From the IMG/VR virus record IMGVR_UViG_3300025132_000398, positions 1 through 20,441 of that record: DNA of 20,441 bases; one strand, given 5' to 3'. This DNA comes from a virus. Shown here in pieces: positions 1-15,949 of this stretch. The notes under the pieces are model-generated. The model was not told the DNA's origin. It saw only the letters and a program-made list of their open reading frames with translations, and ran no database searches. The translations under genes and the position numbers were made by a program. Position 1 is the stretch's first letter; each line of letters starts with the position of its first letter.

Positions 1-8
1 ATCAGGAG

Positions 9-380
9 CTACTGAGAGAAGACTGATAAGGATACCGTAGTAGAAGTAGTGTCGATTTCTCTTTCTATTTCTGTTACTGACAGTACCTGACTGGCTGCTC
101 TTGTTACTAATTCTAGCTCGAATGGATCTCCAGCTGTGTGTAAGGTGAATATTGAATCTGAGTCTGCTATACCTCCTGATGAGGCTGATGTATGGGTTAT
201 GTTTTCCCCAGTCCATTTTTGCAATGCTGATCCATAGGTTGTCGTAGTTATTTCTTCTACGATCTCTTGAGTTGTTGTTGTTGTACTGTTCATCGAACCC
301 TGGGTGAAGTTTGGGGTTACTAATTCTGCTCTTGCTACCGTGGGTGATGCCAGTAATAAGAGTACTAGCCATTTCTTCAT
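9..380 (-). CDS. Secreted or periplasmic small phage protein with signal peptide
   Basis: This 123-aa protein starts with a clear Sec signal peptide: MKKWLVLLLLASPTVARAEL has a KK n-region, a Leu-rich core and an ARA-E cleavage site near residue 18. The mature part opens LVTPNFTQGSMNSTTTTTQE, then is rich in Thr and Ser (EEITTTTYGSALQKW) and ends TTSTTVSLSVFSQ. I recall similar signal-peptide proteins in marine cyanophages, without known function. Export during infection puts it in the periplasm or outer membrane, where it might alter the cell surface or help release; this is inference. The start overlaps the preceding gene as ATGA. The TAG stop lies nine bases from the window edge. Confidence 0.72.
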   Translation of the reverse strand: MKKWLVLLLLASPTVARAELVTPNFTQGSMNSTTTTTQEIVEEITTTTYGSALQKWTGENITHTSASSGGIADSDSIFTLHTAGDPFELELVTRAASQVLSVTEIEREIDTTSTTVSLSVFSQ

Positions 381-661
381 GTCTTTGATTTGTCCTTTTT
401 ATTATTACCGTTACTACCAGTAGTCAAGCCGAAAGTTGCTAAGGCTCCAGTGAAGACACTGGCAGGAAATGTGATATCTCCACCTGGACTTTTCTTGATC
501 ATAGGTATTTCTACATAATTTAATGTAATAATAAATCCACTCCAAACAACTACGCCAAGCCTGACGAATGTTCCAAGGATCTGGATTTGGTGTTCTTGAT
601 CCTCTGCTGCATCTTTCAGCTTTCCGAGGAGTCCTTTTTTTTCTTCCGCTGTTCCTTCCAT
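377..661 (-). CDS. Two-TM membrane protein, holin candidate
   Basis: The 94-aa protein has a charged helical N-terminus (EEKKGLLGKLKDAAEDQEHQ), a first hydrophobic segment at about 29-49 (LGTFVRLGVVVWSGFIITLN) and a second at about 63-80 (TFPASVFTGALATFGLT). It ends in a Lys-rich tail. Size, two helices and charged ends fit class II or III holins, and the gene sits among small membrane and secreted proteins after the tail genes. No endolysin gene is seen in the window, so the holin call is tentative. It begins within the previous gene (46-base overlap), and its TGA overlaps the next ATG as ATGA. No strong Shine-Dalgarno is visible. Confidence 0.7.
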   Translation of the reverse strand: MEGTAEEKKGLLGKLKDAAEDQEHQIQILGTFVRLGVVVWSGFIITLNYVEIPMIKKSPGGDITFPASVFTGALATFGLTTGSNGNNKKDKSKT

Positions 662-1002
662 TTGTTGACTTTGGCTTGTAGTTGTTTCTGAACTTTCTTT
701 TTAATCGGTTCAAATAAAGACTGCGTAATAGATGTTGTTGCTACCGCTACAACTGCTGTAGTCACAGCTGTCACTACCACTGCTGTCTCAGGTACTGGCA
801 TTTTAATGTCCAATACAGGTATCTTTAAACTTGGTGCTACAGGTTCTTCTGTAGCTTCTTCCTCTACCCCTTCAGGAGCCTCCAGATCGCTCGGAGGGAT
901 CACCATAGGCTTATACCCTGGAATACGAGCTGAAGGTGGCTTAAACTCGATTTCCATCGTAGGTAGAGGTGTAGGAGCTGTTGGCAGCTTAATCGGCTGC
1001 AT
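616..1002 (-). CDS. Proline-rich single-TM protein
   Basis: The 128-aa product has three parts. Residues 1-72 are rich in Pro and acidic residues (PTAPTPLPTMEIEFKPPSAR, then EEEATEEPVAP). Residues 73-93 form one hydrophobic segment (TAVVVTAVTTAVVAVATTSI). The last 35 residues are very basic (KKKVQKQLQAKVNKWKEQRK). By the positive-inside rule the basic tail would be cytoplasmic and the Pro-rich arm outside. Similar proteins occur near the end of the structural genes in cyanophages. A part in lysis (spanin- or holin-like) or in the virion is possible but unproved. It overlaps the previous gene by 14 bases and the next by 46. Confidence 0.7.
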   Translation of the reverse strand: MQPIKLPTAPTPLPTMEIEFKPPSARIPGYKPMVIPPSDLEAPEGVEEEATEEPVAPSLKIPVLDIKMPVPETAVVVTAVTTAVVAVATTSITQSLFEPIKKKVQKQLQAKVNKWKEQRKKKKDSSES

Positions 1003-1162
1003 CAGGGGTGTTACCTGCTGCTACCCATTCTAGATACTCTTGGTAATCTGTGTTATCTTCTGCAAATGGAATCCAGGTTTTTTCTGATCCTATCGTTCTG
1101 ATAACAATATCAGTTAGTCCAGTTGGAGTAGTTGCTTTTTGTAATTTATAGTTAATAGTCAT
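989..1162 (-). CDS. Small conserved phage protein, 57 aa
   Basis: A short gene found by reading the minus strand between the last fibre gene and the proline-rich gene. It encodes a 57-aa soluble acidic protein starting MTINYKLQKATTPTGLTDIV. It ends with a segment around NTDYQEYLEWVAAGNTPDAA, a motif that recurs in small phage proteins near tail fibre genes. ATG 1162 is three bases after the fibre stop, so re-initiation is likely. Its end overlaps the next gene by 14 bases in another frame. The motif and the tight packing support that it is real. A fibre-associated role is inferred only from the neighbourhood. Confidence 0.75.
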   Translation of the reverse strand: MTINYKLQKATTPTGLTDIVIRTIGSEKTWIPFAEDNTDYQEYLEWVAAGNTPDAAD

Positions 1163-1165
1163 AAT

Positions 1166-2299
1166 TTAAAGCTCCGCAGAAAATGCAACATAGGCATCAT
1201 CATCGTTATTAGCACCGTATTCACCAACTTCCCCTTGTGTAAATCCTGATCCACCTGTACTTCTAAGATAAGCTGTATTCAATCCAGCTCTTTGTAATGT
1301 TGGTGTAAAGCTATCTGCCCTGGAAGCCATAACTCCACGAAAAGATCCTCCTGTTGTAAAGCTAGGACTAGATCTCATGGTAACTGGATATGAAATAACA
1401 GTACTGACTTCTGAAGAACTTGAGGCCCATCCAACACCTAAATTACCGTAAACGTGCCCAGGAAGCCATTTCCAATAATACCTCTGACACCTATCTAATT
1501 CTTCACCATACGATCTATGTTCAAAGTCAGTTGCGTAAGAACCTACTTCTAACTGAACACCTGTAATTTCTAAGGTCGCATCATTTGTTGTGTACCATGT
1601 TGATGTAGCATCTTTTGTTCGCGTACCACCAGCATAAGTCATCCAAGCATTTTCTGTTACAGAATTATCAGTATAATTTGTGCCAATAAAAGGCCAAAGA
1701 GAAAAAACAAATCCTTTACTAGCATTATTATCAGCTTGTAAAGCTGGACTCGAACTACCAGGAATTGTTTTAGTGATTTTTGTCCAAGTATTTGCAGTCA
1801 AAGTGCCTGTTGCATAGGGATAACTTCTTTCTGTACCATCTTCCATGCTTAAATAACCTTTAAAATCCTGTGCAACACTAGATTTTATCCAAAAAGATAA
1901 TGTTATAAAGCTAGATGTTGAAGTATAATTCCAGCCACTTTGTGCAATATCCTGTGCTTCTAGTTGCGTTGAAAAATTTATAAAGTCTGCTGCACCTGCA
2001 CCGCTTGTTTGGTTTCCGTTTGTTATTTTTAGAGCTTTTCTAAAACCTAATGTATAAGGAGTAGTTCCACTTGCAACATCAACTTGTGCGTGAGTAGGTG
2101 CTTCATCTACACCTGAGTTTTCAACTGCAAATCTATCAACACTTCCATAGCCATTGGTAGTAGATGACGTACCACGTTGAGCCACTTGCATCGCCCCATT
2201 AATTATCAAATTTCTAAAACTTCTAGGATTCTTAACATCTACTGCAACAGCTTGTCCACTAGTTGCAGCATTGATTGTATTTACGTTTAATGTACTCAT
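1166..2299 (-). CDS. Tail fibre protein with carbohydrate-binding-like jelly roll
   Basis: The 377-aa protein carries the tail fibre motif RNLIINGAMQVAQRGTS at residues 29-45 and GSVDRF just after. A predicted beta sandwich follows at about 60-250. It ends in the classic ITGVQLEVGSYATDFEHRSY then GEELDRCQRYYWK at 245-277, typical of carbohydrate-binding-like domains in phage receptor-binding proteins. Residues 280-377 form a separate tip with a Gly- and Ser-rich sequence. It is the last large fibre gene, and coupling to the S74 spike by ATGA suggests matched production. Binding of a host surface sugar is a fair inference. The receptor is unknown. Confidence 0.83.
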   Translation of the reverse strand: MSTLNVNTINAATSGQAVAVDVKNPRSFRNLIINGAMQVAQRGTSSTTNGYGSVDRFAVENSGVDEAPTHAQVDVASGTTPYTLGFRKALKITNGNQTSGAGAADFINFSTQLEAQDIAQSGWNYTSTSSFITLSFWIKSSVAQDFKGYLSMEDGTERSYPYATGTLTANTWTKITKTIPGSSSPALQADNNASKGFVFSLWPFIGTNYTDNSVTENAWMTYAGGTRTKDATSTWYTTNDATLEITGVQLEVGSYATDFEHRSYGEELDRCQRYYWKWLPGHVYGNLGVGWASSSSEVSTVISYPVTMRSSPSFTTGGSFRGVMASRADSFTPTLQRAGLNTAYLRSTGGSGFTQGEVGEYGANNDDDAYVAFSAEL

Positions 2300-3453
2300 G
2301 CTGCCTCCAATGCTGCTACTTTAGTTTCTAATGTTTCTATTTTAGTGATCGCCTCTTGTAATGCAGCAGTAAGAAGAGGAACGAGTTTCGATTGATCTAT
2401 ACCTTGGTAAACAGGGTTATCATCAGAATCTACTTCATCTTTTGTTCCTACTATTGCTTCTGGTACTACAGGTGTTACTTCATGTGCAAAGAACCCGTCA
2501 ACTGTTGTATCAGGATCAACTTTAAAATTAAATCTATATGGTTTAAGTGTTTTTAATCTTGTTATTCCATCGGAAATTGCAACAACATTATCTTTTAATC
2601 TGTAGTCTGAAGAAGTTGAATAAGTAGTTGAACTACTATTAATCGTAACCTGTCCGACTTGTGTCTGAGTTGATCCACTTGTGTTTCCATATCTCCACCT
2701 TATAGCTGCACCACCGTCAATTATATTCCATTCAGAATGGTCATTAGATTTAACATAAATTCTACCTCCTGAGGTGAGGTTGCAACCCGTATTGTTCCCT
2801 GTGTCTACACCTAAAGCGTCAACTGTTGTACCTATATTTAATTGACCACCTGATGTGATGCGAACTTTTTCTGTTGGTGTGGCAGAGGACGCATCAAGAT
2901 TAAAAGTAAGAGCATTTGAGTTTTTTGAACTACTACCGCAATCTATCGTCCAACTATTACCATAAGCATTAAGAGCAACACACGAGGATGCATCAGCATG
3001 ATTATTATCATTTTTAACTAATACTTGAGTTCTACCATTTTTATCTTCTTGGAATGTTGCTCTTGAACTCCAATAATCTGTATTTCGTCCTACATGTAAA
3101 TTTCCAGCAGATGTAATGCGAAGTCTTTCTGTACTATTAGTTCCTAAAACTAAATCACTTGCATAAGTGGTTATTATACTTGGATTATAAGAGGTACTTC
3201 CACCTCTAATCTCCATAGTACGACTTGATTGGTCATCTAATAAAATTACAGGTGTAGTTGTTCCAACTGTCAGAGGTTTTGTAGGAGTTGCATCACCTAT
3301 ACCGACATTTCCAGAACTATTAGCAGTTACAAACGATCCATCACCTGCGTAGTTATCGTTTAAATTGATTGTTCTATCAGCAGCAGGATTCGTTGCAGGA
3401 GCTGCGATGCTCATGCTATTCCCGCTTGAATGTTTTAATTTTATTTTACTCAT
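2296..3453 (-). CDS. Tail spike/fibre with C-terminal peptidase S74 chaperone
   Basis: The 385-aa protein has a beta-rich body with repeats of the type ERLRITSAGNLHVGRNTDYW and EKVRITSGGQLNIGTT. From residue 282 it has an intramolecular chaperone domain of the S74 family. The motif SDYRLKDNVV contains the Ser-Lys dyad (Ser282, Lys287) that cleaves the chain just before the serine once the trimer has folded. DGFFAHEV and the final coiled coil LVPLLTAALQEAITKIETLE are also standard for the domain. Mature spike would therefore be about 281 aa. The N-terminus (MSKIKLKHSSGNSMSIAAPA) is a known short fibre head. The codons for its last residues contain GGAGG, four bases before the next ATG, and the genes overlap as ATGA. 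Confidence 0.88.
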   Translation of the reverse strand: MSKIKLKHSSGNSMSIAAPATNPAADRTINLNDNYAGDGSFVTANSSGNVGIGDATPTKPLTVGTTTPVILLDDQSSRTMEIRGGSTSYNPSIITTYASDLVLGTNSTERLRITSAGNLHVGRNTDYWSSRATFQEDKNGRTQVLVKNDNNHADASSCVALNAYGNSWTIDCGSSSKNSNALTFNLDASSATPTEKVRITSGGQLNIGTTVDALGVDTGNNTGCNLTSGGRIYVKSNDHSEWNIIDGGAAIRWRYGNTSGSTQTQVGQVTINSSSTTYSTSSDYRLKDNVVAISDGITRLKTLKPYRFNFKVDPDTTVDGFFAHEVTPVVPEAIVGTKDEVDSDDNPVYQGIDQSKLVPLLTAALQEAITKIETLETKVAALEAA

Positions 3454-3731
3454 GTATCTTTATTTGCAATTAAGAATGCTTTGTAGTCTGCTTTGACTTG
3501 AGTAGTCCATGCAGCATTGCATATTGCCTGAACATCACTGTCCTCGCCCGATATGTTTGTATCTACTAAGTTGTCACTTGCATCAAGTATTCCTGGTACA
3601 ATTGTTTTCCGATGAAAAGAACGGGCAAGTTCCACACCATCTTCTTTGATGACTGATGCAGTTCTTACCTGTATATTCCATTTTTGAACGACTTCTATTT
3701 TATCGTTCTCTAGTGTTTTTGTTATTGCCAT
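3450..3731 (-). CDS. Small hypothetical protein in the fibre cassette
   Basis: This 93-aa soluble protein (MAITKTLENDKIEVVQKWNI at the N-terminus, ending AWTTQVKADYKAFLIANKDT) has alternating beta-like segments and a C-terminal helix. It resembles the small proteins that often accompany fibre genes in marine cyanophages, but I cannot assign a function. It follows the only sizeable gap inside the fibre cassette, so it may begin a separate translation unit. Its stop overlaps the next start as ATGA. It could be a fibre accessory or connector; no signal peptide, TM segment or catalytic motif is visible. Confidence 0.72.
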   Translation of the reverse strand: MAITKTLENDKIEVVQKWNIQVRTASVIKEDGVELARSFHRKTIVPGILDASDNLVDTNISGEDSDVQAICNAAWTTQVKADYKAFLIANKDT

Positions 3732-3737
3732 TTAGGG

Positions 3738-3752
3738 TTAATCTCCGATTAA
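3738..3752 (-). promoter_or_regulatory. Small hairpin presenting a Shine-Dalgarno in the 67-base gap
   Basis: The gap 3732-3798 is the longest one between genes in the window. On the coding strand it contains a perfect 6-bp inverted repeat TTAATC-GGA-GATTAA, whose centre supplies GGAG ahead of the ATG at 3731. A second, imperfect inverted repeat (TTAGAC / GTCTTAA) lies at about 3773-3794. There is no T-run, so neither looks like a terminator, and I recognise no phage promoter consensus. A regulatory role is a guess. Confidence 0.35.
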
Positions 3753-3798
3753 GACAGGTTTATGGCTTAGTTTTAAGACGTGCTAACGGTCTAAATAA

Positions 3799-4536
3799 TT
3801 AAACCATGTAATGAGCAGCCAATGATAACTGTGCGCTGGCACCATTAGACCATGAGTTCCAGTTCGCTCCTACATAAAATTCAAGTTGACTACCGCTTGT
3901 TTGCGCTCCAGCTTGCACACTTGAAAAAACATTAGATTGGTAAGCTACAGACCCAGAACCTTGATAACTATTGGCAGCGAAAGGTAATCCAGCAATCAGA
4001 GGATAGGCAACTCCACTAGTATTCATTTGAAAACCAGCCATTCTTAAGGTTACTTGAACAAATCTCCCTATCTTTGTATAGCGGGCATCTAGAGTGGTTG
4101 GACTAGTGGTGTAACTAACATCTACCCATGCACTACCATTATATGTTCTTGCTACAGGCGTCCATGTTCCCTCTTCATAATGATCCAAAAGCTCCGAAGT
4201 TGTAGAAGCACCCGTTGCTGATGTAGCAGTTTGAGCACTAAAGTCAATACCTTTACCAGACGGGAACGCTAGTCCTGTAGCTGATGTCTCACATTGCTTA
4301 GTATTATTATGGTAGAGTTCTACTGCTCCATTAGCTACAGCTTTAATAGCATCTTCATTATTATTTACTCTTGCAACTATATTTGCAGTAGCATCAATAT
4401 ATAAAGAACCTTGATTGCAATCTATCCAACCGTTTGTACCATTAAAAGAGATTTCTAGATCATCATCTGTTCCAAATTGTTGTTTATCGTTATCGTCTAG
4501 TTGTACTCCTGTAGAGCCTTTAATTGTTACTGCCAT
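3799..4536 (-). CDS. Tail fibre-like protein
   Basis: I chose the ATG at 4536, in a TAATG overlap with the previous stop, over one five codons earlier, because MAVTIKGSTGVQLDDND matches the usual short fibre head of these phages. The protein is 245 aa. Residues 20-90 read as paired beta strands (DDLEISFNGTNGWIDCNQGS then LYIDATANI), then comes the marine-phage linker LAFPSGKGIDFSAQTATSAT. The motif ELLDHYEEGTWTPVARTYNG starts a C-terminal beta domain ending in LSLAAHYMV. That EEGTWTPV motif is widely seen in phage fibre tips. The exact receptor cannot be inferred. Confidence 0.78.
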   Translation of the reverse strand: MAVTIKGSTGVQLDDNDKQQFGTDDDLEISFNGTNGWIDCNQGSLYIDATANIVARVNNNEDAIKAVANGAVELYHNNTKQCETSATGLAFPSGKGIDFSAQTATSATGASTTSELLDHYEEGTWTPVARTYNGSAWVDVSYTTSPTTLDARYTKIGRFVQVTLRMAGFQMNTSGVAYPLIAGLPFAANSYQGSGSVAYQSNVFSSVQAGAQTSGSQLEFYVGANWNSWSNGASAQLSLAAHYMV

Positions 4537-5033
4537 TAGATTACCGTCCAAGATTCACCAGCACCAACCGTTACGGTGACACTAGAATTTATAGTTACAG
4601 GGCCAAATGTACCTGCGTTGTGGTTGTTTTGGATGGTATAGTCATGGGTAACTGTTTGCTCGTTTTCCCAAAAGATTTTGTTACCATTACTGTTACCACC
4701 TGTTGCACCAGCTGAAGCATTACCCCATGATATATCTGTACCATCAGATGTTAGTACTTGATCAGCGGTACCTACAGCTAATACAGCTGGATTACCAGAT
4801 GCATCACCATAGATAATTTTACCTCTAGCTATCCCTGCCATATGAGCTAAAGTAATTGCGTCATTAGCTAGGTTGTTTAAGTCTTCACGTAGTAGAGGTC
4901 TACCAGCTTGTGTTGACCCATCATGTACAACTATAGTATCTTTTGTTGTGTCTACAGTAACTTCTCCTTCGGCACCAGTGAAGCTACTGTGGTCTGAGGT
5001 TGAACCTCTTCTTAGTTTTAATAATTTTGCCAT
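4536..5033 (-). CDS. Small fibre-like protein with Mtd-N-type domain
   Basis: This 165-aa protein begins AKLLKLRRGSTSDHSSFTGA followed by EGEVTVDTTKDTIVVHDGST, the N-terminal domain of major tropism determinant-like phage fibre proteins (residues 1-47). The middle (LTSDGTDISWGNASAGATGG) and the end GNKIFWENEQTVTHDYTIQN, then GTFGPVTINSSVTVTVGAGE, form a beta-helix-like tip common in cyanophage fibres. Despite the Mtd-like head there is no C-type lectin variable region and no reverse transcriptase nearby, so this is not a diversity-generating retroelement target. The start overlaps the previous stop (TAATG), and the end overlaps the next start the same way. Confidence 0.8.
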   Translation of the reverse strand: MAKLLKLRRGSTSDHSSFTGAEGEVTVDTTKDTIVVHDGSTQAGRPLLREDLNNLANDAITLAHMAGIARGKIIYGDASGNPAVLAVGTADQVLTSDGTDISWGNASAGATGGNSNGNKIFWENEQTVTHDYTIQNNHNAGTFGPVTINSSVTVTVGAGESWTVI

Positions 5034-6262
5034 TATGATACCGATCCAAAGTCAAGGTCAAGGTTCGATCCAGCACCACCATTTAATAGTGTTACTGTAA
5101 GATCTCCTGATGAAGAATTAAATGTTAAATTAGTACCACTCTTAGGTGCTAAATCTCCTGTTGCTGCTGTAGCAAACAGTGGAAAACAAGTTGTATCTGA
5201 ACTTTCATCTGCAACTGTTATAGCAGTTGGAGTACCGCCAGCGGCTGCTTCCCAACCAGCTTCGCCATTAGCGTCAACTGTTAGGACATAATCTTCAGTT
5301 GCAGTTGTATCTTTAACAACAAAGTTGATTCCAGGTATTCTGAATTTGGTGATGTTCGTATCACCTAAAGTTATCTCGTTAGATACTGTTGCTGAAGAAG
5401 GGTCTGCACTTGCACCTATAACTATATTGTTATCACCTGTTGTTATAAGATCTCCAGCTTTGTATCCAAATACAGAATTATTAGAAGCTCCTAAAGCATT
5501 TTCTAATGTTTCAGTACCAACAAAAGTGTTGTTGTCACCTTGACATTTCCAAGCAGCAGCATAACCAAGACCTGAGTTATTATTTCTTTGACCAGAGTTA
5601 GATCCAAACTGAGCATATCCAACTAAAGTATTTTTACTAGAACTACCAGTAAGATCTTTTCCACAACCTTTTCCAATAAATACTTGATGAATACCAGATA
5701 TGTTTCCACCACTGTCAGCACCAATGGAAACTGACCCCTCTGATATATTTTGACCAGCACCAGAACCCACGCAAACTATATCTGTTTCTGAAGCACTGTA
5801 GGCAGCATTATAACCTATTCCAACTGCTGTGGACTTGTTCGAGTGACCTCGACCAGCGTCATATCCAACAAAAGTATTTCTTGTGCCAGTTGTAACATTT
5901 CTTCCAGCACTAGAGCCTATAAAAGTATTTTTAAATGTGCTTGCATTAGCTTGCAAACCAGCTTCAAATCCAACAGCAGTGTTGTCGTCACCTTCTGTTA
6001 CGTCAGTAATAGCATTATATCCAAATGCAGTATTATTAGTTCCATCAGTGGTTATAGCGTCTCCAGCATTAGTACCGCCAAGGGTGTTGTACTGAGCGTT
6101 AGAGGTGACTCCACCTCCTCCACCTCCTCCAATTTCTTTTACAGTACCAGAGTCATTTATATATAATTTCGCTGCGGATGTATCAACAGCTACTTCACCA
6201 CTAACAATATCACTAGTACTTGGTGTGGAAGTACCCCGCTTTAGTTTTATTACTGCTGCCAT
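5033..6262 (-). CDS. Tail fibre-like protein with Gly hinge and NTxxGYxAG repeats
   Basis: Residues 1-43 (AVIKLKRGTSTPSTSDIVSG then EVAVDTSAAKLYINDSG) are an Mtd-N-like fibre head domain. A run of seven glycines at 45-51 acts as a likely hinge. Residues 60-290 carry irregular repeats of the type NTAFGYNA, NTAVGFEAG, NTFIGSSAG and NTFVGYDAG, about 20-30 aa apart. They resemble trimeric adhesin head repeats and suggest a beta-solenoid stalk. Next comes the common phage segment EITLGDTNITKFRIPG. Residues 349-390 (ADESSDTTCFPLFATAATG) copy the end of the preceding gene's product. The start overlaps the previous stop as TAATG, with GGAGG nine bases upstream. Receptor binding or stalk function is inferred. 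Confidence 0.8.
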   Translation of the reverse strand: MAAVIKLKRGTSTPSTSDIVSGEVAVDTSAAKLYINDSGTVKEIGGGGGGGVTSNAQYNTLGGTNAGDAITTDGTNNTAFGYNAITDVTEGDDNTAVGFEAGLQANASTFKNTFIGSSAGRNVTTGTRNTFVGYDAGRGHSNKSTAVGIGYNAAYSASETDIVCVGSGAGQNISEGSVSIGADSGGNISGIHQVFIGKGCGKDLTGSSSKNTLVGYAQFGSNSGQRNNNSGLGYAAAWKCQGDNNTFVGTETLENALGASNNSVFGYKAGDLITTGDNNIVIGASADPSSATVSNEITLGDTNITKFRIPGINFVVKDTTATEDYVLTVDANGEAGWEAAAGGTPTAITVADESSDTTCFPLFATAATGDLAPKSGTNLTFNSSSGDLTVTLLNGGAGSNLDLDFGSVS

Positions 6263-7272
6263 TAGAAGGTGCCTCCATCAACCAATCCGTCTACTTGAGT
6301 TGCTGTAAGTAATCCTGAAGATGAGTTAAATGTTAAGTTAGATCCACTTTTAGGTGGTAGATTTCCTGTCGCTGCAGTAGCAAATAATGGGAAACATGTT
6401 GTATCACTAGATTCATCAGCAACAGTAACATTTGTCGATGTAGTTGCTGTAGCAGCATTACCAGTACAAGAACCAGACGAACCAGAAGCATTACCAGTTA
6501 ATGCACCTGTAAAATTTGTAGAGGTTAGAACTCCTGAAGAAGGATTATAAGTTAAACCTGTATCAGTTTCAATCCCTTGTGTACCAGTAGCACCATCTAC
6601 AAAGACAGGGTAAACAGTCTCATCAGTAGAGTTATTTGCACTAGCAGTAACATTAGTTGCTTCTGTTGCTGTAGCAGAGTTTCCAGTACATGATCCAGCT
6701 GATCCAGATGTATTACCAGTTACGTTACCTGTTACATTACCAGTTAAATTACCTTCAAATGTACCAGCTACAAGTGTACCTGAACTGATAGATAAATTAC
6801 CTGTATCTGTACCTACAAAATTACCTGTACCTACTATAAATTTATCTTCTGATTCATCCCAACCTATAAATGCATTAGCAGAACTACCTCTTTCTATAAC
6901 AAGCCCAGCATCATTAGATGGACTACCAGACGTACCATTACCTAGTTCTATTAAAGCGTCTTTTATCTCAGAGTTTGTTGTTTGTAAAGATGTAGTTGTC
7001 CCGTTAACTGTTAAGTTACCAGACATAATTACATTATCACTGAATGTTTTTACGCCTGCTACGGTTTGAGCTGTTGTTAAATCACAAAATGCTCCAGATC
7101 CACCGATTGCTATAACAGAAGTAGCTACTCCACTACCATTATCACCATATCCATAGTAAAGTTTCTTATCACTAGCGTTTTCGTTAAAAGCTAATTCTGA
7201 AGATGCTAAAGAACTGGGTGCTCCAGCTGATCCACTAGAAGCTCTTTTCTTAATTCTTATTGTTGATGCCAT
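6262..7272 (-). CDS. Tail fibre-like protein with duplicated marine-phage modules
   Basis: This 336-aa protein begins with the fibre N-terminal motif IRIKKRASSGSAGAPSSLAS followed by ELAFNE and LYYGYGD, seen at the start of many cyanophage fibre proteins. A VAGVKTFSDNVIMSGNLTVN segment follows at residues 71-90. Residues 170-280 hold short TGNVTGN and SGSCTGN repeats. Two related modules of about 50-60 aa lie at about 205-265 (STDETVYPVFVDGATG) and 281-328 (ADESSDTTCFPLFATAATG). The second is nearly identical to the end of the next gene's product. The protein is low in charge and rich in Gly, Thr, Ser and Asn, as in trimeric beta fibres. GGGAGG 12 bases before the start is provided by the end of gp17. 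Confidence 0.8.
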   Translation of the reverse strand: MASTIRIKKRASSGSAGAPSSLASSELAFNENASDKKLYYGYGDNGSGVATSVIAIGGSGAFCDLTTAQTVAGVKTFSDNVIMSGNLTVNGTTTSLQTTNSEIKDALIELGNGTSGSPSNDAGLVIERGSSANAFIGWDESEDKFIVGTGNFVGTDTGNLSISSGTLVAGTFEGNLTGNVTGNVTGNTSGSAGSCTGNSATATEATNVTASANNSTDETVYPVFVDGATGTQGIETDTGLTYNPSSGVLTSTNFTGALTGNASGSSGSCTGNAATATTSTNVTVADESSDTTCFPLFATAATGNLPPKSGSNLTFNSSSGLLTATQVDGLVDGGTF

Positions 7273-7274
7273 TG

Positions 7275-8201
7275 TTAAAAATTACCTCCCTCTAAGGTCT
7301 TAATGTTTTGTGCGTTATCGGCAAAATATTTTGAGGAACTGTTTTTCCAATAGATCACAGAACCATCTTCTTTGGTGGATTGGTCAAGCCAAGGTATACT
7401 ATCTACATAAGCTTTAACTGATTGCTGGCTAGGTGGGTTAACAGCTGAATTACTAGACATATTATCTTCATCTAGTACTGTATTAGAAGCTATTTCAAAA
7501 AAAGTACTTCCAGTATAATACTTTAGTTTATTAGTACTAGTATCATACCATAAATCACCTGCGGATGGAGAACTAGGTGCTGATGATGCTATCTTATATT
7601 CATTTGCATATCTATTTACGTGAGCTATATTATCAGCTACAGTCGTAATGTTACTTCCAGCAGCTGTACCAGTTAGAGCATTAGATACAAAACCGTAATC
7701 AGAAGATACACTTAAGTCACCTGCAACAACTCCAATATCAGTCAACCAATCTGGTTCATTAGCAGTTATTTGATCTGCTAACGTATCTATACTATCAGCT
7801 GCAAATTTAGCTGTTGTTACTGCACCATCTTCTATTTCATATGTCTGTACTAAATGATCTTTTTCATCTATAGCACGTAATACTTGTATCTGATTATCAT
7901 TTAGATCATCTTGTTTTATAGAAGAACCTGCATAATATACAGCTCTACCTTCTACATCAGAAGAAGCATTATTTAATATTTTAGTATCTCGATAGATTCT
8001 AACAACTTTATTCTGTGGTATGTTACCTGAAGTCCAAGTAACTGTACCTCCATTTTCAGTATAATTTGTTATGTTATAATGAGTAGCAGCTGTCTTTAAT
8101 ACACCATCTACTCTTACTTTGATTTCATCAGAAGTGAAAGAAGGAATCGAAAAAGCTTCAGAAGAACCCCCACTTGCTGTATATTGTTTAAAACTTGCCA
8201 T
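7275..8201 (-). CDS. gp17: Tail fibre protein with T7 gp17-type attachment domain
   Basis: The 308-aa protein opens with the T7 tail fibre N-terminal domain (Pfam Phage_T7_tail type) that docks fibres on the tail. Residues 1-120 carry SFTSDEIKVRVDGVL, HYNITNY, GGTVTW, VVRIYRDT and the helical QDDLNDNQIQVLRAIDE. After a linker of predicted beta repeats, residues 208-230 (PSSPSAGDLWYDTSTNKLKY) form a small fibre motif common in marine phages. The protein is much shorter than T7 gp17 (553 aa) and lacks an obvious receptor-binding tip. It is probably a base to which the fibre proteins of the following genes attach; that role is inference. Its last codons, for EGGNF, spell the GGGAGG that serves the next gene. 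Confidence 0.9.
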   Translation of the reverse strand: MASFKQYTASGGSSEAFSIPSFTSDEIKVRVDGVLKTAATHYNITNYTENGGTVTWTSGNIPQNKVVRIYRDTKILNNASSDVEGRAVYYAGSSIKQDDLNDNQIQVLRAIDEKDHLVQTYEIEDGAVTTAKFAADSIDTLADQITANEPDWLTDIGVVAGDLSVSSDYGFVSNALTGTAAGSNITTVADNIAHVNRYANEYKIASSAPSSPSAGDLWYDTSTNKLKYYTGSTFFEIASNTVLDEDNMSSNSAVNPPSQQSVKAYVDSIPWLDQSTKEDGSVIYWKNSSSKYFADNAQNIKTLEGGNF

Positions 8202-12379: not shown

Positions 12380-14773
12380 TCAAAATGTACTATTATAATC
12401 TGCATCTTTAACTTGTAATTCAGTTAGCATATTTTCTGTATTATCTGGGACAACTGACCACTGAGCAGTTTTAGCAGAATTCTGTTTAATCATTAAAGGT
12501 CTAAGTTGGAACTTATCTTCAATTTTAATATCTCCTACTTCACCTTCTCTTAGGTCTGCTGTCATTTCAGTTCTCTTTTTAAAGAGTTCTCTACCAGTCA
12601 TATTAGGGAAGTATTTAGCTTTATCTGTCCACCAACCAGAGATAGGTTCACCTTTTTCTTCAGCAGCTAAACTATTTAGAATAGCTTCTTGTTCTCCAGC
12701 ATTCCAATATAAAGCACTATCTGCTGGTTTCTCAGTAGTACCTAGATACTGTACTAGTTGTGCTTCATTAGCTACTTCTAGTCTATAGTCAGGAACTATA
12801 TTATTTCCAAACAATTTAGGAGAATGATTATCAGGATTTTTATCCTTAATAGTATTGAACTCATTCTTAACTATATCCATTGCTTTTATCTTATTATCTA
12901 GTTTAGCAGCTAGTGTATCCTCTCTATTATCAGATCTCATTAGTTGCTGATAAGTAGCGTTATAAAGATTAAGCATTCTGGTTCTAGCTAATCTCATTTT
13001 AGCACCTAATCTTTGGTCTATTGTACCATGTACTTTATAGTCCTTTATGATCTCTACGAATTCTGCATCAGCATCTTCTAGTTCTTGAGAAGTTAAACCT
13101 TCTGAACCTAAAATTGCAACTTTATCTTTCCAAACTTGTTGTAGTTCTTGAGGTAATTTAGCAATTAATTCAGTAGATAATAATTCACCTCTAGCCTCTT
13201 GACCTTGAAGGGTTAGTAAAGCATTACCTGATCTATCAGCTCTACTTTCACCATAATTAGCAAAAGAAGCTAACTCAGCGAAGGCAGAATTAGCTGGAGA
13301 TAAGTTATGTTTCTTAGCTAATTCTGTCCATGTATTCATAGCTGCTGATTTTATTTCATCAGTAGACCAATTCTGTTCTTTAGCTTGATCTCTTATGCTA
13401 GCAGTTTGCTGTAGAATATCATTAGCTGTCTCAGCTTTCTCAAGCTTCAACTCTTCATTCATATCTTTCTGAGCTACGACTTGAAGTTGATTATATACTT
13501 CAGGTTTCAGTTCTTCTAGAGTAGTTGTACCACCACCTCTAGCTGGGAATGGAGTATTTATAGCATCCTGTAGTTCTCTACCAGATAGGTATCCTTTGTC
13601 TACGGCATGAGTAAGTAAATTAGCTGATTTAGCGAATCCCATACTATTATTCTTACCACCATCTAGTGTCTGTTCGTAGACACTGACTGAACCTGAACTA
13701 CCAACCATAGCGTTTATACCTTCACGCTTGAATGTAGCAGCGAAAGCTTTAGCATTAGCATCTCTATTATTAGATCTTGCAGTTTCTAAAGCTACACCCA
13801 TAAATTTCTTATGAGTTACTTGAGCTTGCTTGTATAACTCAGGAAAGACTTCTTCTCTATATCTTTTCTCTCCTATCTTATCTATGTAATCTTGGTTGAA
13901 AGCTGAATAATCTGCTAGTGCATCACGTAGTAATACTGAAGCAAAGGCAGCATCTTCTGCTGTAGCATCCTTACTAGTAGCATCCATGTAACTCATGGGT
14001 GTATCCATACCAGGAAGTTGTTTTTTAACACGTAAGAGTGATGGGAATATAGAATCAAAATCTTCTGCTATCTGCCATTGTAATTCTCTAGCAGTTAACT
14101 CATCAGCAGTAGCTCTATTAGTTTTAATGAATTCTAATCTTTGATTTAAATCAAGTTGATCTTCCTGTTCTTCAAATAACTCTTTTTGATGTTGATTTAC
14201 TATTTTTTCATTCCGTAAATCCCATTGCTTATCTTTCTCTCTAAGCTTCTCGTCAATATATATGTAACCATCTTCAGTTATAAATTGGCTAAGGTCTTCG
14301 TTTTGACCAATATAACCTTTAGATTCTAATAGCTCCCAGTGATCTGCAGTAAATTTTTCCCATACATATGTTCTAGCATCCATACCATACCACTCAGGGG
14401 CTGGACCTGCTGAATGTTCTGCTGCTGCTTCTACTTCAGATTTAGTAAGCAGCTTGGCTGTCTTCAGTTTAGTCTTATGTACTTGATCATACTGAGCTTT
14501 AGCTAAATCTTTTGCTTTCCAGTAATCATGTAATTTCTTACCTGAACCTATTAAACCTACTAAACTTTTTATATTCTCTTGTTTCCTATCAGCAGCATTT
14601 GTAGCCATTACTACGGCTTCTTGTGTGCGTTTAGCGAAGTCTTCTTTCTGCTGATCTATTTGTTTATTTACTTCTTCAACAAGGCTATTATCAGCTGGAT
14701 CATCATAGTTAGTTTTACTAATATCAGGTAAATTACCTTGATACTGACTCAGCATATCTTGAAAAGTACTCAT
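12380..14773 (-). CDS. gp15: Internal core/ejection protein gp15-like
   Basis: This 797-aa protein sits between the gp14-like and gp16-like genes and is close in size to T7 gp15 (747 aa). In T7, gp15 joins gp14 and gp16 in the ejectosome that spans the periplasm. The sequence is very hydrophilic and almost wholly helical, rich in Lys, Glu, Gln and Ala, with no signal peptide or membrane segment. Examples are the N-terminal VEEVNKQIDQQKEDFAKRTQ and the stretch EELKLEKAETANDILQQTAS. Assignment rests on order, length and composition more than on a specific motif. The start is fixed by a GGAGG seven bases upstream and an ATGA overlap with gp14. Its TGA stop is followed in the same frame by 12 sense codons and the next gene, so readthrough would yield a longer protein. 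Confidence 0.82.
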   Translation of the reverse strand: MSTFQDMLSQYQGNLPDISKTNYDDPADNSLVEEVNKQIDQQKEDFAKRTQEAVVMATNAADRKQENIKSLVGLIGSGKKLHDYWKAKDLAKAQYDQVHKTKLKTAKLLTKSEVEAAAEHSAGPAPEWYGMDARTYVWEKFTADHWELLESKGYIGQNEDLSQFITEDGYIYIDEKLREKDKQWDLRNEKIVNQHQKELFEEQEDQLDLNQRLEFIKTNRATADELTARELQWQIAEDFDSIFPSLLRVKKQLPGMDTPMSYMDATSKDATAEDAAFASVLLRDALADYSAFNQDYIDKIGEKRYREEVFPELYKQAQVTHKKFMGVALETARSNNRDANAKAFAATFKREGINAMVGSSGSVSVYEQTLDGGKNNSMGFAKSANLLTHAVDKGYLSGRELQDAINTPFPARGGGTTTLEELKPEVYNQLQVVAQKDMNEELKLEKAETANDILQQTASIRDQAKEQNWSTDEIKSAAMNTWTELAKKHNLSPANSAFAELASFANYGESRADRSGNALLTLQGQEARGELLSTELIAKLPQELQQVWKDKVAILGSEGLTSQELEDADAEFVEIIKDYKVHGTIDQRLGAKMRLARTRMLNLYNATYQQLMRSDNREDTLAAKLDNKIKAMDIVKNEFNTIKDKNPDNHSPKLFGNNIVPDYRLEVANEAQLVQYLGTTEKPADSALYWNAGEQEAILNSLAAEEKGEPISGWWTDKAKYFPNMTGRELFKKRTEMTADLREGEVGDIKIEDKFQLRPLMIKQNSAKTAQWSVVPDNTENMLTELQVKDADYNSTF

Positions 14774-15525
14774 GAGATCACCTCCATGTCAACATCAATT
14801 TTACCATAGTTAACTGCTAAGTAACCGTCTCTTATACCTACAGCCATAGGATCTATCTTAGCTACTTCTTGAGCCACAGCTCCACGGTATCTAGTTGGAT
14901 TGCCGATATAGTTAAATTCATATATCTTATGTCCATTAGGAGATACTCCTACTTGTTCTATATCTTCTTTCATTCTAATATCACTAGGAGCGAATAGAGC
15001 AGCTATAGACAAACCAGTACTTAAAGCACCCATAAACTGACCTGCTTTATCTGCACCAGGATCTGAGACAAGAGCACCAAACTCAGGTGTCATTCCTAAC
15101 TGTTTTCTGCTAGCACCTAACATCTTGGTCCTTTGTCTTTTCGCACCTTCTAATGCTATACTCTGACCTCTTCCAGCAAATTTTGCTATACCTGCATCAA
15201 TCTTAGATTCTGCATTTAATAGTTCTAAATATTTATTCCTACCAGCTGATCTGGAACCACCACCTTCATTAACATATTGAGTAGCTGCATAAGATCTAGC
15301 AGATTTCTCTTTAGCAGATAAACCAGCTGCTCTCTTCTGCATAACAGCTTGACGTATGTCACTTAGCTGTCTAGACTCACCAATACCTTGAATGAATTGT
15401 TTCTTTCTTTTGAAATCAGTTTCTCTATTCCAATATTTAATTGAATTACTTCTGTAATTGTACACCTTTTCACGGTGTCTTTCTTTAGCTGCAGCTCTAG
15501 CTCCAGCATTAGGATCTGCACACAC
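14770..15525 (-). CDS. gp14: Internal core/ejection protein gp14-like with C-terminal S74-like domain
   Basis: By position and build this is the gp14 ejection protein, which leaves the virion with the DNA and inserts in the host envelope. The basic, helical N-terminal half (ARAAAKERHREKVYNYRSNS) is followed by a short hydrophobic stretch QFMGALSTGLSIAALFA. The last 71 residues begin SDIRMKEDIEQVGVSPNG and include YRGAVAQEVAKIDP, the pattern of peptidase S74 / endosialidase chaperone domains. The Ser and Lys of the SDxRxK motif are present. I chose GTG 15525, giving an N-terminus MCADPN like the MC start of T7 gp14, and 251 aa. ATG 15561 would add 12 residues and has a GAGGG upstream. The end overlaps gp15 as ATGA. 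T7 gp14 (196 aa) lacks the S74-like tail. Confidence 0.8.
   Translation of the reverse strand: MCADPNAGARAAAKERHREKVYNYRSNSIKYWNRETDFKRKKQFIQGIGESRQLSDIRQAVMQKRAAGLSAKEKSARSYAATQYVNEGGGSRSAGRNKYLELLNAESKIDAGIAKFAGRGQSIALEGAKRQRTKMLGASRKQLGMTPEFGALVSDPGADKAGQFMGALSTGLSIAALFAPSDIRMKEDIEQVGVSPNGHKIYEFNYIGNPTRYRGAVAQEVAKIDPMAVGIRDGYLAVNYGKIDVDMEVIS
14781..14785 (-). promoter_or_regulatory. Strong Shine-Dalgarno for the gp15-like gene
   Basis: A perfect GGAGG lies seven bases before the ATG at 14773, inside the last codons of the gp14-like gene. It is the most canonical ribosome binding site in the virion core genes and fixes the start of the gp15-like protein. Confidence 0.8.
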
Positions 15526-15949
15526 GGCAAAACTCGATAAAGGATAATTGGTTAGGACCATACTTGAGTTCCCTCAAGAATTTAAACCCTAAGAATTTGA
15601 GTAGTTTTAAGTGGACTGTATTCCGTCTATCTGCAACATTCCAAAGTAAAGGTTCTGTTCTACTCTCTACAAACCTTTTGGATTCTTTTGCAAACGTATG
15701 TGGGTAATCTTTAATAGCAGGTGTACATATCATCCATATAGCTCCCTCTGGGCCGACTCCAGCCATACCAGCAGTCTTGCCGTTAGGCACTGTGAAATAC
15801 ACAGCAGAGCCTTCCTGAGCGATGAATTTAGCGTACTCTATCGGATCATACCCGTGACCTTCTTCGACCTCTCTACGGTCTTCTGGACGTAAGTTAGAGG
15901 CCACCTCCAAGGCAGCCTCCATTGTTATTGGATGGATGTATTTAGACAC
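15509..15949 (-). CDS. gp13: Internal virion protein gp13-like (GNAT-fold related)
   Basis: This 146-aa protein matches T7 gp13 in place (between gp12 and gp14) and size (138 aa), and in a pattern of short motifs. These are the N-terminal IHPITMEAALEVASNLRPED, a central SVYFTVPNGKTAGMAGVGPEG resembling an acetyltransferase beta core, then PLLWNVADRRNTVHLKLLKF and GFKFLRELKYG near the end. T7 gp13 is needed for proper virion assembly, apparently by supporting the internal core proteins; no enzymatic activity is implied. The start is GTG (15949-15947) inside the final codons of gp12, with no clear Shine-Dalgarno, so coupling is likely. An ATG at residue 10 is an alternative but would cut into the conserved N-terminal motif. 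Confidence 0.85.
   Translation of the reverse strand: MSKYIHPITMEAALEVASNLRPEDRREVEEGHGYDPIEYAKFIAQEGSAVYFTVPNGKTAGMAGVGPEGAIWMICTPAIKDYPHTFAKESKRFVESRTEPLLWNVADRRNTVHLKLLKFLGFKFLRELKYGPNQLSFIEFCRVCRS

Follow-up and report, generated by a model that had tools for sequence, protein, structure and literature searches.

What do the small overlapping genes beside the structural genes of a marine cyanophage do for the virus? The stretch examined here, referred to as the window, is IMG/VR record IMGVR_UViG_3300025132_000398 (20,441 nucleotides, nt), whose minus strand carries the structural region of a T7-like cyanopodovirus. At its left end lies a chain of small genes for a protein of 57 amino acids (aa), a Pro-rich membrane protein, a protein with two proposed transmembrane (TM) segments, a protein with a signal-peptide-like start (SP) and, in part, gp165. 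We tentatively read the last four, with a confidence somewhat below even, as an envelope-exit (lysis) module that marine cyanophages express late and that includes a non-canonical, spanin-like part. The genes are placed as follows:

989-1162, minus strand: 57-aa gene, soluble product; phrog_20370 (E 1e-7).
616-1002, minus strand: Pro-rich gene, 128 aa; phrog_9426 by profile, with phrog_570 as the myovirus counterpart.
377-661, minus strand: two-TM gene, 94 aa; DUF6450 (PF20048).
9-380, minus strand: SP gene, 123 aa; phrog_650.
1-216, minus strand, ATG at 216-214: 5' part of the gp165 gene, in the -1 frame relative to the SP gene; phrog_1755/phrog_848 family, continuing beyond the left window end.

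A sequence-only reading of the window had described four overlapping genes with overlaps of 14, 46 and 4 nt, and the coordinates reproduce these values exactly (989-1002, 616-661 and 377-380). As a set, the proposal stood for the 128-, 94- and 123-aa genes but not for the 57-aa gene, and a fifth overlapping gene, gp165, had been missed. Homologues of the three proteins occur in the same order in relatives, and the overlap between the Pro-rich and two-TM genes measures 46 nt in NATL2A-133, 9515-10a and P-GSP1, 37 in P-SSP7 and 34 in S-RIP1; this recurrence of order and of a long overlap indicates that the arrangement is more than chance. The P-SSP7 annotation marks PSSP7_042 as '1 transmembrane region', PSSP7_043 as '2 transmembrane regions' and PSSP7_044 as 'possible SignalP'. 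Judged by the SP protein, the closest named relatives are Cyanophage NATL1A-7, NATL2A-133, P-SCSP-R27W, P-SSP10, P-SSP6 and 9515-10a (83.6-89.1% identity), and a 98% relative (L100) is present in IMG/VR.

Annotation of gp165 is inconsistent among the relatives because its 5' end lies within the SP gene in the -1 frame. The annotated starts differ: gp165 is begun too late, at an internal start, in P-SSP7 and NATL2A-133, and a 313-aa frame runs across the SP gene in 9515-10a; the SP gene itself is omitted from the annotation in 9515-10a and S-RIM50. Translation of the -1 frame over the SP 3' end in relatives revealed one basic and one hydrophobic stretch plus an AxA-E site, leading into the conserved gp165 sequence NPVAAATGNVTNQAVQFQNNG or its like, as in the 9515-10a start region, RNRKRNRHYFYYGIIISLFSIAPARA-EE. 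Among 142 non-identical SP genes, a set that takes in the window, P-SCSP1u and, as myovirus-type genes, L183, L184 and L190, an open -1 frame with a strict start codon is found in 141; 139 of these continue into gp165 sequence, and the window and L165 end there. All 139 also carry a small-x-small site, loosely defined, ahead of the mature start. In P-SCSP1u, the remaining gene, gp165 overlaps SP in the other frame and has its own ATG. A separate observation concerns S-RIM50, where the unannotated SP gene (L018 2516-2932, plus strand) is intact and overlaps the annotated gp165 homologue.

The openness of the second frame exceeds what the SP protein and its codon usage would produce. For the podovirus group with a 123-aa SP protein, reduced from 86 to 83 sequences by a redundancy filter for this comparison, the -1 frame was open across the last 68 codons in 83/83 genes, against 5.5% of protein- and codon-preserving shuffles, and across the whole SP gene in 76/83, against 1.8%. 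The -1 frame is stopped wherever a codon ends in T and the next one begins with AA, AG or GA. Such a third-position T was found at 0 of 945 positions over codons 55-122 of the group, compared with 37% T elsewhere. At these loci, the Pro-rich and two-TM genes, taken from all 86 sequences, displayed no avoidance (59% and 56% before AA or AG; 44% and 22% before GA, the last value being somewhat low). Other podoviruses gave 3/251 in the last 30 codons, 20/274 in codons -60 to -30 and 83/410 farther upstream. Because codons 1-54 of the 123-aa group are affected as well (14/478), a longer gp165 product is conceivable; in the window, the gp165 frame stays open up to a further ATG at 372-370, hinting at a product that might start there.

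The T4-like phages provide the sharpest view of the start. Across 76 non-identical SP genes from these phages, a conserved Trp codon is preceded by A without exception, which creates an ATG in the second frame. At -165, the preceding codon is Ser TCA in 49 of 49, Thr ACA in 20 of 20 and CAA in 5, with ACA at -171 and -177 in L184 and L190, while across these SP genes TCA makes up 25% of Ser and ACA 49% of Thr codons. Other Trp codons in the same genes are preceded by C (49), G (18), T (16) or A (8). The nested ATG is in frame at -166 in 72 genes and stands at -172 and -178 in L184 and L190; L223 and L227 have a break in the frame close to the end of SP. With these two excluded, the 74 sequences held 0/632 stop-making codons downstream of the ATG against 307/845 upstream, and this avoidance, complete on one side and absent on the other, places the gp165 start inside SP.

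Podovirus starts are less uniform, located at -208 or -193, at an NTG at -112, or at an ATG at -67 where the frame is closed farther upstream; L129 has CTG at -208 and its sole ATG at -364. Synonymous conservation is 0.47 in codons 101-123 versus 0.16 in codons 21-54, and codons 1-20 are conserved like the 3' end (0.49 and 0.54). Conservation in codons 56-123 exceeds that in 21-54 (p = 0.010), and the excess is not clear for codons 56-100 (p = 0.12). Taken alone, synonymous conservation does not sharply mark the predicted podovirus start. The codon comparisons confirm that gp165 starts inside the SP gene, in another frame.

The families travel together well beyond the relatives of the window. 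In podoviruses, the Pro-rich, two-TM, SP and gp165 genes are consecutive, and among 123 loci with enough flanking sequence two-TM and gp165 were found in all 123 and Pro-rich in 122, in line with the conserved neighbourhood that the sequence-only reading had proposed to look for among cyanopodoviruses. These loci derive from the best 80 gp165 and the best 80 SP matches among those listed, so the set leans towards relatives of the window, and loci found through gp165 carry gp165 by selection. The set includes the genome contigs L176-L182, and the single locus lacking Pro-rich, L182, is distant. The 76 T4-like loci all carry Pro-rich and gp165, and 55 carry two-TM; here SP and gp165 are as a rule convergent with Pro-rich and two-TM. 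All such figures count loci, not independent genomes, because several contigs enter twice under different identifiers, and the sequences are related, so that the counts are not independent events. Co-occurrence in the 123 podovirus-set and 76 myovirus-set loci supports the earlier suggestion of a real module of inner-membrane and exported proteins.

Arrangements vary while membership persists. S-RIM50 has an extra exported gene ahead of SP, and S-SM1 has two further small genes between two-TM and Pro-rich. In P-SCSP1u and P-RSP2, the two-TM, SP and gp165 genes are convergent with Pro-rich. P-HS2, a 38-kb Prochlorococcus phage classified only as Caudoviricetes and, judging from its name, presumably a siphovirus, has genes for two-TM, an extra exported protein, SP and gp165 that converge on those for Pro-rich and a small membrane protein. 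The families are thus kept together in at least four gene orders among T7-like, T4-like and P-HS2-type phages. P-SSP7 has the module between its tail-fibre genes and the DNA maturase gene gp19; in S-SM1 it is near the clamp-loader, regA and hsp20 genes, and in S-RIM50 near hsp20.

Across 15 whole cyanophage records, Pro-rich, SP and gp165 were all present or all absent in 15/15, and present in nine (S-SCSM1, S-SM1, S-RIM50, P-SSP7, P-SCSP1u, P-RSP2, P-HS2, Syn9 and P-SSM4). For Syn5 and P60 the search used the podovirus profiles for SP and gp165, the two Pro-rich families and DUF6450; for S-PM2 and PSS2 it was confined to phrog_570 and the myovirus profiles for SP and gp165. The P-SCSP1u SP and Pro-rich genes, beyond the reach of the myovirus profiles, were read from the sequence, Pro-rich being assigned by eye. 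DUF6450 tracked the block wherever it was searched, that is, in all records but Syn9, P-SSM4, S-PM2 and PSS2, with one sub-cut-off match in S-CREM2. These comparisons show the four gene families as neighbours, variously arranged, in tailed phages that are unrelated to one another.

Promoter motifs suggest late transcription in the T4-like versions. The T4 late promoter sequence is given as TATAAAT (PMC3037559). Upstream of myovirus SP operons, TAAATA was found within 120 nt in 36 of 40 loci, where 2.0 loci were expected from the same sequences, and 38 of the 42 copies lie 21-40 nt upstream; the figures exclude loci whose upstream sequence was shorter than 900 nt, 14 loci in which no upstream exported gene was found, and identical upstream sequences. 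Near the two-TM gene the motif occurred in 40 of 45 myovirus loci against 4.0 expected, a count that retains near-identical loci and takes the stop-to-stop frame as gene start. The T4-like versions were thereby shown to carry predicted late-promoter motifs on both halves of the module, which fits a lysis role.

The topologies claimed for the four proteins hold for the soluble 57-aa product, for the Pro-rich protein with a single TM segment and basic tail and, by eye, for the signal-peptide-like start of SP; for the two-TM protein, the second segment is weak. The window Pro-rich protein has a single hydrophobic segment at about residues 70-92, 17 Pro ahead of it, an N part of charge -6 and a tail of +8. 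Charges of the N part range from -2 to -15 in five members from T7-like phages, and tails from +5 to +14. By the positive-inside rule, the protein would be oriented N-out/C-in. The P-SSP7 member matches phrog_570 weakly (E 0.0016) and phrog_9426 at 1e-49. The two-TM protein scores 104 bits against DUF6450 (gathering cut-off 25), with a strong segment at residues 28-46 and a weaker second one. On the Kyte-Doolittle scale one segment reaches 1.6 in four of five family members and none does in P-SCSP1u, while PSSP7_043 is annotated with two TM regions. The Pfam and PHROG matches of the window protein include no holin family. A homologue is carried by S-TIM4.

Two neighbouring proteins in S-SM1 deserve mention beside these. 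S-SM1_164 (L005 6305-6625, plus strand), annotated 'plasmid stability protein', reads as a small N-terminal membrane protein adjoining the module, and a similar-looking protein lies beside the P-HS2 module. S-SM1_165 (L005 6622-7182, plus strand; phrog_605), encoded between the two-TM and Pro-rich genes, combines an N-terminal membrane segment with a C-terminal region that looks glycine-zipper-like by eye.

The window SP protein is Thr-rich, begins with MKKWLVLLLLASPTVARA-E, and meets the full-length phrog_650 profile over residues 2-123 (E 1.9e-32). Its C terminus, S-x-S-x-F-S-Q, is invariant in the 16 podovirus sequences aligned. Against DUF6322 (PF19847) it scores 16.2 bits, under the gathering score of 30.6, and a P-HS2 relative within phrog_650 scores 117.5 bits; the link to DUF6322 therefore holds through the family only. 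The SP model (pTM 0.36) predicts two strands of 22 and 23 residues. The structural matches of this model are weak and for the most part hairpins from proteins that form rings or barrels, namely lysenin, CDTb, aerolysin, the FliF collar and phage collars (Z at most 3.8); phage tail proteins are among its best Foldseek matches (8egr_I, E 0.029; 6iac_B, probability 0.93, TMq 0.42). The gp165 model places the highly conserved mature residues 1-29 at pLDDT <50, followed by predicted strands and two long helices, and gave no reliable structural match; gp165 also has no Pfam family. We considered whether gp165 or SP could be a hidden enzyme and set this aside: beyond the sub-cut-off DUF6322 score of SP and the missing gp165 family, no worthwhile sequence match to a solved structure was found and no reliable fold match either, the latter being weak evidence. 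Pfam scans detected no enzyme motif in the members, as the sequence-only reading had held.

By first word of name, the 453 phage records matching gp165 all belong to Synechococcus, Prochlorococcus or other cyanophages or to unnamed marine phages. A host origin of gp165 was also set aside: the genome-contig scan gave 16 loci, many titled as non-cyanobacterial metagenome-assembled genomes, and none was a convincing host gene, phage origin not being checked locus by locus. Several of the contigs L178-L191 carry cyanophage gp165 relatives and are binned as Flavobacteriaceae, Chloroflexota, Euryarchaeota or Nonlabens xiamenensis, probably through contamination or co-binned phage.

An envelope-exit module could work as follows. 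SP and gp165 would be secreted by Sec to the periplasm or outer membrane, and the two-TM protein would behave in the manner of a small class II holin. Pro-rich would sit in the inner membrane with a stiff Pro-rich periplasmic arm and a basic cytoplasmic tail. SP, as a long beta-hairpin, may assemble as a ring or tube, and Pro-rich, SP and gp165 together would carry out the outer-membrane task that Rz/Rz1 spanins perform elsewhere. Nesting would tie the production of SP to that of gp165, much as the overlapping Rz and Rz1 genes do for their products in lambda. The place of the module in P-SSP7 corresponds, as we take it, to the T7 location of the 17.5 holin and the 18.5/18.7 spanins. We consider doubtful the stronger version, in which one machine replacing spanins has been exchanged among several tail types of marine cyanophages, with an N-out, C-anchored Pro-rich protein, a holin-like two-TM protein and a nested secreted pair, one of which forms an outer-membrane beta ring or tube. 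If true, it would be a third route of outer-membrane disruption beside two-component spanins and u-spanins.

Several observations weigh against a role in lysis. Pro-rich, SP and gp165 were unmatched in six whole records (S-SZBM1, S-CREM2, Syn5, P60, S-PM2 and PSS2); since all six phages presumably lyse their hosts, the module is not universally needed for lysis. A lipobox is absent from both exported proteins, the window SP protein having no cysteine at all, and their structure models, of low to middling confidence, match nothing reliably. The second TM segment of DUF6450 is weak by hydropathy, and the S-SM1 Pro-rich N part, at +7, weakens the N-out argument for that phage. The S-SCSM1 two-TM gene, at 127198, lies about 7 kb from the rest (134650-136554). 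No endolysin was recognised by Pfam in 29 of the 58 P-SSP7 coding sequences (CDS), nor by Pfam or PHROGs among the P-HS2 neighbours scanned. Finally, a spanin survey lists Syn5, P60, S-PM2 and PSS2 as spanin-less (PMC6139136), and these have no SP, gp165 or Pro-rich match.

A superinfection-exclusion or surface-remodelling module, changing the envelope to bar further phages or to alter receptors or nutrient uptake, is an unlikely alternative. It would agree with exported and membrane proteins that have no enzyme motifs, with an accessory distribution (9/15 whole records) and with the spread over diverse phages of related hosts, as expected for exchangeable accessory genes. Exclusion genes are usually early, however, whereas late-promoter motifs lie upstream of both halves in the T4-like versions, and four or more conserved components are many for exclusion. 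Slightly less likely again is that SP and gp165 are virion-associated or entry proteins, at the tail tip or ejected to cross the envelope, and that their signal-peptide-like starts are something else. Such a role would suit the podovirus module's position next to tail-fibre genes, the phage tail proteins among the SP Foldseek matches (8egr_I, 6iac_B) and the late motifs, which befit structural genes too; yet signal-peptide-like features occur in both proteins, the module lies among clamp-loader, regA and hsp20 genes in S-SM1 and near hsp20 in S-RIM50, and Syn5, S-PM2 and others build particles without it.

We regard as improbable that the module is a mere neighbourhood of unrelated late cyanophage genes with no joint function. 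Direct interaction evidence is lacking, and the two-TM gene is within the flank in only 55/76 myovirus-set loci and apart from the rest in S-SCSM1, but the families remain grouped through at least four arrangements, and no whole record has some of Pro-rich, SP and gp165 without the others. Most improbable of all is that gp165 arises by -1 programmed frameshifting as an SP-gp165 fusion, with the nested starts a by-product of the SP Trp codon: the constant -1 frame in SP loci examined except P-SCSP1u and the many podoviruses without ATG, GTG or TTG within 100 nt of the SP stop would allow it, but against it stand the invariant A before the SP Trp codon in myoviruses, where other Trp codons mostly follow C, stop avoidance confined to the region downstream of that ATG, the P-SCSP1u overlap in the other frame with its own ATG, the starts found downstream of closure where the frame closes upstream, and the poor sense that an internal signal peptide behind an exported domain would make.

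Returning to the envelope-exit reading, the module resembles two-component spanins (lambda Rz/Rz1, T7 gp18.5/18.7) in its probably late genes, in pairing an inner-membrane protein with an exported partner, in an out-of-frame overlap and in a similar place on the T7-like map. Unlike those systems, the TM domain of its inner-membrane protein is C-terminal, with a basic tail and a probable N-out orientation; neither exported partner has a lipobox, and both have a signal-peptide-like start of AxA type; and it is the genes of the two exported proteins, SP and gp165, that are nested, not those of a membrane and an exported protein. The hydrophobic segment of Pro-rich was C-terminal in 6/6 members tested, where an i-spanin has an N-terminal (type II) TM domain, and SP lacks the lipobox of an o-spanin. 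On these two grounds, we do not claim membership in a spanin family. The two-TM protein is comparable to class II holins such as T7 gp17.5, being small, with about two TM segments, the second of them weak, a basic C-terminal tail and a position after the tail-fibre genes in cyanopodoviruses, and differs in forming its own family, DUF6450 (PF20048).

Phage lysis of Prochlorococcus and Synechococcus feeds the dissolved carbon pool of the ocean, and how their phages open the outer membrane has been posed as a question. For 20 phages of the two hosts, the spanin survey records no spanin and raises the question of another route (PMC6139136). P-SSP7, S-SM1, Syn9 and P-SSM4 are on its spanin-less list and carry the block, and an alternative topology that it names resembles the Pro-rich protein and perhaps the exported pair (PMC6139136). 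The module supplies concrete genes for this question, with four of them in podoviruses and as many as seven neighbours in S-SM1, and is a good candidate for the missing exit step in viruses of the ocean's most abundant photosynthetic bacteria. The single families are already known as hypotheticals, phrog_650 (DUF6322), phrog_1755/848 (gp165), phrog_2714/721 (DUF6450) and phrog_9426/570, to which the window proteins, and gp165 of relatives, belong by profile. In the open-licence literature we did not find the module, the nested start, or DUF6322 and DUF6450 by name described, although no search was aimed at 'overlapping genes' as such. The nested pair is a clear case of two secreted proteins in two frames, mishandled by annotation.

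The 57-aa protein was tried as a further member and set aside, contrary to the sequence-only reading. It has no hydrophobic segment, its matches adjoin tail-fibre and tail-fibre-assembly genes in unrelated phages, and different genes occupy its place in NATL2A-133 and 9515-10a. Speaking against its exclusion, S45-C4 has a related small gene two genes ahead of its Pro-rich gene. The protein is probably tail-fibre-associated and outside the module despite the 14-nt overlap.

A classical lysis cassette with endolysin was set aside, since no endolysin was recognised among the P-SSP7 and P-HS2 genes scanned. The proposed inspection of genes to the left of the window was made by way of P-SSP7: beside the Pfam result, one weak PHROG 'endolysin' match emerged (E 9.8e-10 over 99 residues), in PSSP7_050 (L272 40359-42065, plus strand), directly before gp19. 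This protein gave no Pfam family at E 0.01 (YhfT alone, 0.031). The P-SSP7 PHROG scan lists 25 of 32 matched families, without protein assignment.

Elsewhere in the window, positions 1166-8201 (minus strand) hold a series of separate fibre-like genes (377, 385, 250, 165, 409, 336 and 308 aa, plus a 93-aa gene) in place of one long tail fibre, with tail-family matches for some only. The proteins of 2296-3453 and 14770-15561 (minus strand) share, near the C terminus, a stretch that we take to be endosialidase-chaperone-like (SSDYRLKDNV.../SDIRMKEDIE...). The best PHROG match of the 14770-15561 protein is a DNA ejection protein, an odd site for a fibre chaperone domain.

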